Shown here in pieces: positions 1,543 through 2,790 of a stretch of 64,000 nt of DNA (position 1 is the stretch's first letter; each line of letters begins with the position of its first letter). Origin of the DNA: Aphanocapsa lilacina HA4352-LM1 (GTDB lineage Bacteria; Cyanobacteriota; Cyanobacteriia; Gloeobacterales; Gloeobacteraceae); the NCBI GenBank assembly GCA_019359725.1, contig JAHHGR010000002.1, positions 62,001 to 126,000 of the forward strand. Reading direction: 5' to 3'. The translations under genes and the position numbers were made by a program. The notes below the pieces were generated by a model that was given only the letters and a program-made list of their open reading frames with translations, did not search any database and was not told the DNA's origin.

Positions 1543-1659
1543 TCAGGCTGTACTTCGATCCTCAAGAGATTGAAAACTCTGGCAGCTAACACCTGCCGGG
1601 TCCAGCCACAGCACCAGGTTGCGCACGTAGATTTTGGTGTCTTCTAAAGCGTGCGGATG
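1543..1659 (-). pseudogene. Severed 3' end of the gene at 1721-2617
   Basis: Read on the minus strand, this stretch continues the frame of the upstream gene exactly when the element at 1660-1791 and one copy of the 10-bp duplication are removed. The rejoined codons read HPHALEDTKIYVRNLVLWLD and run to a TGA at 1543-1545, adding 34 residues after the alanine. The hydrophobic YVRNLVLWL block is a sensible closing helix. With the element in place the fragment has no start codon of its own and is presumably not translated. Confidence 0.75.
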
Positions 1660-1791
1660 CAGGGCTGTTTCATTCTAGCTTTGCATTGGATGCAAATGAG
1701 AATCGAGAGCGGCAAAAGCCTTATTGCTTGTTGAGCAGGTCAAGCTTATTGACATGGCCGAATGGGGTTTTTGGAGAATGAAACAGCCCTG
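1660..1791. mobile_element. 132-bp MITE-like element with 10-bp target duplication
   Basis: The ends are perfect 17-bp inverted repeats: CAGGGCTGTTTCATTCT at 1660-1676 and its reverse complement at 1775-1791. The element is flanked by a direct repeat CGTGCGGATG at 1650-1659 and 1792-1801, as expected for a target-site duplication. It has no room for a transposase, so it would need one in trans. A 10-bp duplication fits IS4-like transposases (9-12 bp is typical), but that family assignment is inference. The insertion interrupts a minus-strand gene, replacing its last 34 codons with 22 codons read from the element. Confidence 0.8.
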
Positions 1792-2617
1792 CGTGCGGAT
1801 GGGTCTGCATCGTGTCGCCGGGCAGTTCGCACACGAAGCTTGGACAGGGATAGCGGCCGTCCCAGTTGACATCGCTGAAGTGGTGAAAAGTCGATTCGGC
1901 CACCGCCCGGCCGGAGTGGGCCGTGCGCTCAATGGCCACCGCCAGGTTGAACAGGCGACCCGAGACCAGGCTCGCGCCGCGGGCCACCACCCGCGCATCG
2001 AGGCCTTCGACCGCGGGTATGCCCACCGCTCCCTCGTGGGGATGGGCCGGGAGGTATTCGATCAGGCCGCCCAAAGCACCGGGACGGCGGAGCAATTCGT
2101 GGATTGGTTCGACCGGGACAATTTTTTGATAGTCGCCGTTGCGGCCGGAGTGGTAGTTGGGCCAGCTGATGTCGGTGGTGTAGATGTCGTCGATGCACTG
2201 TCGCTCAGGGTCGTGCTCGGGGTTGTGGGTGTGGAAATTGTGGGCCGCCCCTACCGCCCCCAGGCTGCAGACCGAACAACCGAGATCCATGTGATCGCGG
2301 GTGAACATCAGCCCGCCACCGCGCCGGTGAAAGGCATTGATCCCCGCACAGTCGGCGGCACTTAACCCGTCGCCCACATCGACGGCAAACAGCCACAACT
2401 CGTCAAAGTCTGATGCGCCCAGGCCGCTCAGCACCGGGTCGTCGCCGCCTGCTGCAGCCCGGTTGCGCGCTGTCACCTCGCACAGCAGTTGGCCGTTTTC
2501 GTCTTCGAGGGAACGCAAACATTCCGTCAACAGCGAAAAGCGCCGAATGTCCCAGTCGTCGTCGGTTTCGGGAATGGTCGTCTGCAGCAAAATCCGGATT
2601 GCTCCTGCCATCGCCAT
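1721..2617 (-). CDS. Conserved protein of amidotransferase-like fold, 3' end replaced by MITE
   Basis: Unknown function. The pattern DFDELWLFAVDVG followed by HRRGGGLMFTRDH suggests a ThuA/class I amidotransferase-like alpha/beta fold; this is inference. His and Asp residues are abundant in the middle (HNFHTHNPEHDPE), a possible metal-binding segment. The ATG at 2617 is preferred over a GTG at 2647 because a G-rich stretch precedes it. The natural C-terminus is lost: after HPHA, 22 residues (from GLFHS on) come from the inserted element, giving 298 residues against a reconstructed 310. The gene is divergent from crtO, sharing about 170 bp of upstream DNA. The product may still be made but lacks its native last helix. 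Confidence 0.7.
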   Translation of the reverse strand: MAMAGAIRILLQTTIPETDDDWDIRRFSLLTECLRSLEDENGQLLCEVTARNRAAAGGDDPVLSGLGASDFDELWLFAVDVGDGLSAADCAGINAFHRRGGGLMFTRDHMDLGCSVCSLGAVGAAHNFHTHNPEHDPERQCIDDIYTTDISWPNYHSGRNGDYQKIVPVEPIHELLRRPGALGGLIEYLPAHPHEGAVGIPAVEGLDARVVARGASLVSGRLFNLAVAIERTAHSGRAVAESTFHHFSDVNWDGRYPCPSFVCELPGDTMQTHPHAGLFHSPKTPFGHVNKLDLLNKQ

Positions 2618-2790
2618 CGCCCCCAACGCTTGGAAAAAAGCTACCACGGCAACACAGCGCGGGCTACTGGCCGATTGTTCAGGTCAAGCCTCACCAGTGC
2701 GGACCGAAATCTCTCCGGCGGTGGGCGACAGGCTCGATAACGTTTCGCAATCTGGTGAAGAAACGCAGAGCGATGCCAGGGAGTTCGGAC

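Follow-up and report, generated by a model that had tools for sequence, protein, structure and literature searches.

The window analysed here, a 64-kb stretch (64,000 nucleotides) of the Aphanocapsa lilacina HA4352-LM1 genome, contains a minus-strand gene that is interrupted near its 3′ end by a MITE. The features of this locus are collected in Table 1. Next to the 3′ end of this gene, two overlapping frames lie on the plus strand, opposite to it (40-726 and 723-1514); the first is GTPase-like (Pfam MMR_HSR1) and the second is without a Pfam match.

Table 1. Features of the interrupted gene and of the inserted element, in window coordinates.
Feature	Position	Strand	Remarks
Downstream, stranded end of the interrupted gene	1543..1659	-	Stop codon 1543-1545
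Target duplication, left copy	1650..1659	.	CGTGCGGATG
MITE, without a transposase gene	1660..1791	+	132 bp; one of 18 full-length genomic copies, of which 16 are identical
Left 17-bp terminal inverted repeat	1660..1676	+	CAGGGCTGTTTCATTCT
Present reading frame	1721..2647	-	286 residues of the gene itself, followed by 22 and a stop supplied by the MITE
Right 17-bp terminal inverted repeat	1775..1791	-	Perfect complement of the left one
Target duplication, right copy	1792..1801	.	CGTGCGGATG
Upstream part of the interrupted gene	1802..2647	-	Protein conserved in some cyanobacteria; Pfam/NCBIfam match absent

The inserted element shows the features of a MITE: it is short with terminal inverted repeats, is flanked by a target duplication, occurs in dispersed copies and has no transposase gene of its own, which 132 bp would be too short to encode. 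Within the 64-kb window the 10-base duplicate is present only at the two flanking positions, and the end motif, allowing up to three mismatches, is found just at the two element ends, as compared to a mean of 0.16 in shuffled sequences. Roughly estimated, perfect 17-bp ends and an exact duplication of 10 bp would coincide by chance about 1e-9 times per window. The element also coincides with a strong predicted fold (z of -5.1 and -5.4). We considered and rejected a structured RNA, as the main stem of this fold consists of the 17-bp inverted ends and an Rfam match was absent from positions 1400-2000.

Joining the two flanks through a single duplicate yields an open minus-strand frame whose stop codon has its last base at 1543. 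The rejoined protein is 320 residues long from a GTG at 2647, or 310 from an ATG at 2617. The present protein is 308 or 298 residues long from the same starts and its frame ends within the element, such that the last 34 residues are swapped for 22 element-coded ones. This arrangement was then compared with related genomes. In two genomes of the same genus, G001 and G003, the site is empty, with one copy of the duplicate and, by BLAST coordinates, exactly 142 bp fewer than in the window; G001 stays collinear for a further 360 bases in the downstream direction, whereas G003 does so for only 72 before it differs. These empty sites show that the element inserted with duplication of a 10-bp target. 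The upstream part of the interrupted protein has matches in 13 of 59 genomes, the own genome included. When the rejoined protein was used as reference, setting aside two weak partial hits (L093 and another in G006), all ten homologous loci outside the own genome aligned past the junction, which follows residue 286, and reached residues 301-318 of 320; one of them, L087, contains an internal stop and yielded no tail sequence. Searches of Pfam and NCBIfam gave no match for this protein, and the PDB held no clear solved relative (best matches at E of about 0.5). We infer that the function of the gene was lost through the insertion.

Much of what had been proposed for this locus from the window alone is borne out. 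The original prediction placed the ends and duplications correctly, and its description of a MITE with a 10-bp target duplication is supported by further copies as well as by the two empty sites, which also support at the DNA level the rejoining of the minus-strand frame upon excision. It had suggested aligning the rebuilt protein to homologues, and these end like the rejoined form. The rebuilt ending needs amendment: the stop at 1543 stands, and the proposed terminus ...LVLWLD falls 18 residues short, the chain continuing with PAGVSCQSFQSLEDRSTA. Similarly, the gene is interrupted as described, without being split in its middle, since only the last 34 residues are replaced.

Searching the genome with the element returned 26 matches, of which 18 are full length (16 identical, two with one mismatch), so that 17 more full copies exist, as a search for other 132-bp copies, proposed earlier, was meant to reveal. 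The remaining eight matches are partial, belong to a divergent 131-bp family or overlap, and loci L021 and L026 were kept out of the counts because they hold copies already counted. Given that 16 of the 18 copies are identical, the family has probably spread recently in this genome. Among 194 genomes, the own one included and with up to four candidate places scored in each, the only trace of the element outside its own genome was a 33-base stretch in G143, and the 132-bp family looks young and local. Target duplications of 10 bp flank ten of the 18 full copies, with one further duplication of 9 bp and one of 8 bp; six copies have none. These six are L003, L004, L007, L015 and L016 and a copy on contig C12, the last of which is compatible with an adjacent deletion: its right flank resembles that of a 131-bp copy on C60 (90% over 100 bases), and its left flank, judged by eye, resembles the middle of a transposase gene. 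Exchange between copies was rejected as the cause of the missing duplications, because no left duplicate matched the right side of another place, the only such pairs being repeat retrievals of one and the same place.

The second family is 131 bp long and 75% identical to the 132-bp element, with at least four copies, as counted among those surfacing in the search with the 132-bp element, and each of the four is flanked by a 10-bp duplication. One member of each family (L074 128-258 for the 131-bp and L002 1502-1633 for the 132-bp element) occupies an identical 10-bp target, CACCCGCATG, within a repeat of which each family has hit a separate copy, suggesting either a target hot spot or the replacement of one element by the other.

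With either A or G permitted at base 8 and no more than one mismatch, the end motif is present in 39 of 116 genomes, including the own one. There, a fragment on C39 that ends in a two-mismatch motif and encodes the end of a transposase led to full-length relatives. For example, a full-length IS in the same-genus genome G003 measures 1154 bp; each of its ends carries one mismatch, and it is flanked by a 10-bp duplication, CAACTAGGAT. Both halves of its transposase match NCBIfam NF033564 (ISAs1 family), scoring 95.8 and 131.7 bits where the cut-off is 70 and covering profile positions 2-146 and 152-313 of 314. NF033564 is the sole NCBIfam match of either half at E 0.001, and the transposase additionally matches Pfam PF13808 and PF01609. 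We compared five full-length ISs in all, of which two have duplications (10 bp in G003 and 11 bp for an IS in G040) and three, including that in G002, have none. The MITE shares just 17-19 bp or so with any IS compared, and an origin as an IS deletion derivative found no support, similarity to these ISs being confined to the ends.

The own assembly gave seven matches to the G003 IS on six contigs, all of them fragments, the most extensive spanning 427 bp (at 79%) and 221 bp (at 95%). Among the 40 places scored out of 53 candidates, none held a full-length IS with these ends. Because the assembly contains only such fragments, the helper may have been lost, may lie in an assembly gap or otherwise unassembled, or may act from elsewhere; in fact, C39 begins inside the IS at a contig end, which makes an unassembled full copy possible. 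Among 17 own-genome loci retrieved for their matches to DDE_Tnp_1 or PF13808, an end with at most four mismatches was found only at two overlapping loci on C32, an ISAs1-like fragment. The IS with exactly the same 17-bp ends that had been anticipated did not appear in the own genome in these searches, and full-length ISs with one mismatch per end are present in a genome of the same genus.

A perfect match between the ends of an IS and a MITE was found only for a pair in G040, a genome of the same class, as compared to the single mismatch per end that separates the window element from the G003 IS. In this genome an IS of 1164 bp and a MITE of 133 bp lie 136 bp apart on one contig with identical, perfect 17-bp ends, and two further MITEs have the same perfect ends. 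The transposase of this IS resembles both halves of the G003 protein at 31-32% identity, and the IS itself has no duplication. A stretch of 11 bases in its left flank, GCTCGGCGCAC, recurs in the duplication of the nearby MITE (L282 265-278 and 1567-1578). Of five short elements read in G040, three have perfect ends on both sides and direct repeats of 12, 12 and 7 bp; the other two lack a duplication, and one of their ends is altered. The G040 elements match the window element in their ends only and not in their interiors.

We also scanned 84,980 species, one genome each, for such ends (A or G at base 8) spaced 118-148 bp apart; the scan may omit the own genome or very near ones. This revealed 88 contig stretches with element sizes of 119-148 bp, many from the same few genomes, Microcoleus foremost. 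By record titles, 86 of these are cyanobacterial, one is from Spirochaetia and one from Lentisphaerae. Duplications of 9-12 bp flank 50 of the 88 elements (exactly 10 bp in 40), whereas for 38 no duplication reaches 5 bp. The interior of the window element matched none of these 88 siblings at E 0.01, and viral contigs gave no MITE of this end pattern. The ends at MITE spacing in the Spirochaetia and Lentisphaerae MAG (L159 and L218) may reflect horizontal spread or, alternatively, a binning error.

Taken together, we consider it very likely that the window element is a non-autonomous MITE moved in trans by a DDE transposase of the ISAs1 family that recognises its 17-bp ends. The original prediction favoured an IS4-like mobiliser on the basis of duplication length. 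Target duplications of IS4 elements are 10-13 bp long, with which the 10-bp duplication is also compatible; those of ISAs1 elements are 8-10 bp long, and so the length alone cannot tell the families apart. However, the transposase of the G003 IS, whose ends are near-identical, matches the ISAs1 profile, and among the 17 own-genome loci an end with up to four mismatches is confined to the ISAs1-like fragment on C32, making mobilisation by an IS4-family element very improbable. It is somewhat less improbable, yet still unlikely, that a dedicated helper is absent and that the MITE uses any ISAs1-like transposase present, even a divergent one with differing ends. PF13808 matches do exist in the own genome on C23, C70, C32 and C34, and a full-length IS with matching ends did not appear there among the places scored. 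But C23, C70 and C34 have no 17-bp end with fewer than five mismatches, and of the frames themselves, those on C23 and C32 look truncated, that on C70 has an internal TAG and that on C34 is 173 residues long.

Two further explanations concern the insertion itself and not its mobiliser. A repeat misjoined into the gene during assembly could be imagined, given that the assembly is a draft of 99 contigs, that many copies lie near contig ends and that six of 18 copies lack a duplication. The site, however, lies inside a contig of 194,573 bases, both of its flanks are collinear with a same-genus genome and its 10-bp duplication is exact, leaving an artefact with a negligible chance of being right. 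The new tail might instead be a useful domestication and not damage, as the frame stays open and its stop lies within the element. But the lost tail is recognisable in homologues and the present one is merely read from one frame of a mobile element that exists in 17 further full copies, and we regard domestication as hardly more credible than an artefact.

The preferred reading, mobilisation by an ISAs1-family transposase, would run as follows. The DDE transposase would act in trans on the 17-bp ends of the MITE, and insertion duplicated a 10-bp target, as the empty sites show. At this locus the element landed near the 3′ end of a conserved gene and put 22 element-coded residues and a stop in place of its last 34 residues, and the family has probably multiplied in this genome in recent times. 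The helper is probably a G003-type IS, about 1.15 kb long, judging from the near-identical ends and the length of the duplication.

The two-part transposase of the G003 IS has many counterparts. We checked 44 loci for transposase frames, which are best matches and not a random sample (30 of them taken from matches in 62 of 291 genomes). Eight held the second half only and 36 held both halves, or 34 after removal of two double-counted places. In 24 of these 34 the halves lie in different frames, with 20 needing a +1 and four a -1 shift. The longest A run at the joint of these split loci is seven or eight in 22 and five or six in two, as compared to the ten single-frame transposases, of which two have six A and eight have four or fewer. 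Split loci such as L128 (1370-2523), L130, L132, L137, L143, L144, L154, L104 and L252-L281 have one conserved joint. Some split copies are damaged further, with stops interrupting the second half of L274 and L253 and non-overlapping frames in L135. General decay is nonetheless disfavoured by nine matches in G210 that have a common score and a common second frame, which is open over 221 residues. The two copies that have six A and an open frame suggest programmed slippage at the A run in cyanobacterial ISAs1-like transposases. We can further speculate, although the odds are against it, that in a cyanobacterial ISAs1 subgroup the full transposase is made only through slippage at a conserved run of seven to eight A, and that the resulting low supply in trans feeds very short elements which keep nothing but the 17-bp ends and outlive the IS. 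If true, bursts such as this one would continue or stop only once the IS has decayed to fragments.

The recoding principle at A runs is already known (PMC3711429): the available part of that report describes clusters of DDE_Tnp_1 transposases with both frame directions, for which transcriptional realignment was inferred. Similarly, the transposases of the ISAs1 group here are split at an A run and require a +1 or -1 shift depending on the copy; unlike our analysis, which ties the split group to ISAs1-type ends in cyanobacteria, that part of the report names Pfam clusters and does not contain the word ISAs1. The frameshift-using families named in the accessible text of PMC5009743 are IS1, IS3, IS5 and IS630, ISAs1 being absent there, and the part available of PMC1088944 describes A runs of 8-10 bases for IS elements from Nostoc sp. 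PCC 7120 with the family unnamed. Among the titles listed for ISAs1 with frameshifting or slippage, none makes this link.

The window element represents a new MITE family of a well-known type of element. Cyanobacteria are reported, going by a paper title, to harbour one MITE called Nezha, and a literature search for MITEs in Gloeobacter returned titles on other organisms only. The host genus lies at the base of the cyanobacteria, and it provides a clean and recent MITE burst, for which relatives supply empty sites and ISAs1 is the candidate helper family. The burst has hit a conserved gene whose function is unassigned by Pfam and NCBIfam. Moreover, many cyanobacteria contain short, mutually unrelated elements that are delimited by ends of a single ISAs1 type, and cyanobacterial MITEs described without a helper can therefore be tested against ISAs1. 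As regards the ISAs1 family itself, the G003 IS combines near-identical ends with a 10-bp duplication and the NF033564 profile; the window element has only the ends in common with it and no transposase gene. The MITEs of Anabaena sp. 90 are likewise short, non-coding and present in many copies with inverted ends, and 15 of 147 lie within disrupted genes (PMC3542288, from the part of the text available). In the same part they are classed as type II MITEs, for want of evident similarity to the ends of the organism's own ISs, whereas the window element has near-identical IS ends in its relatives.
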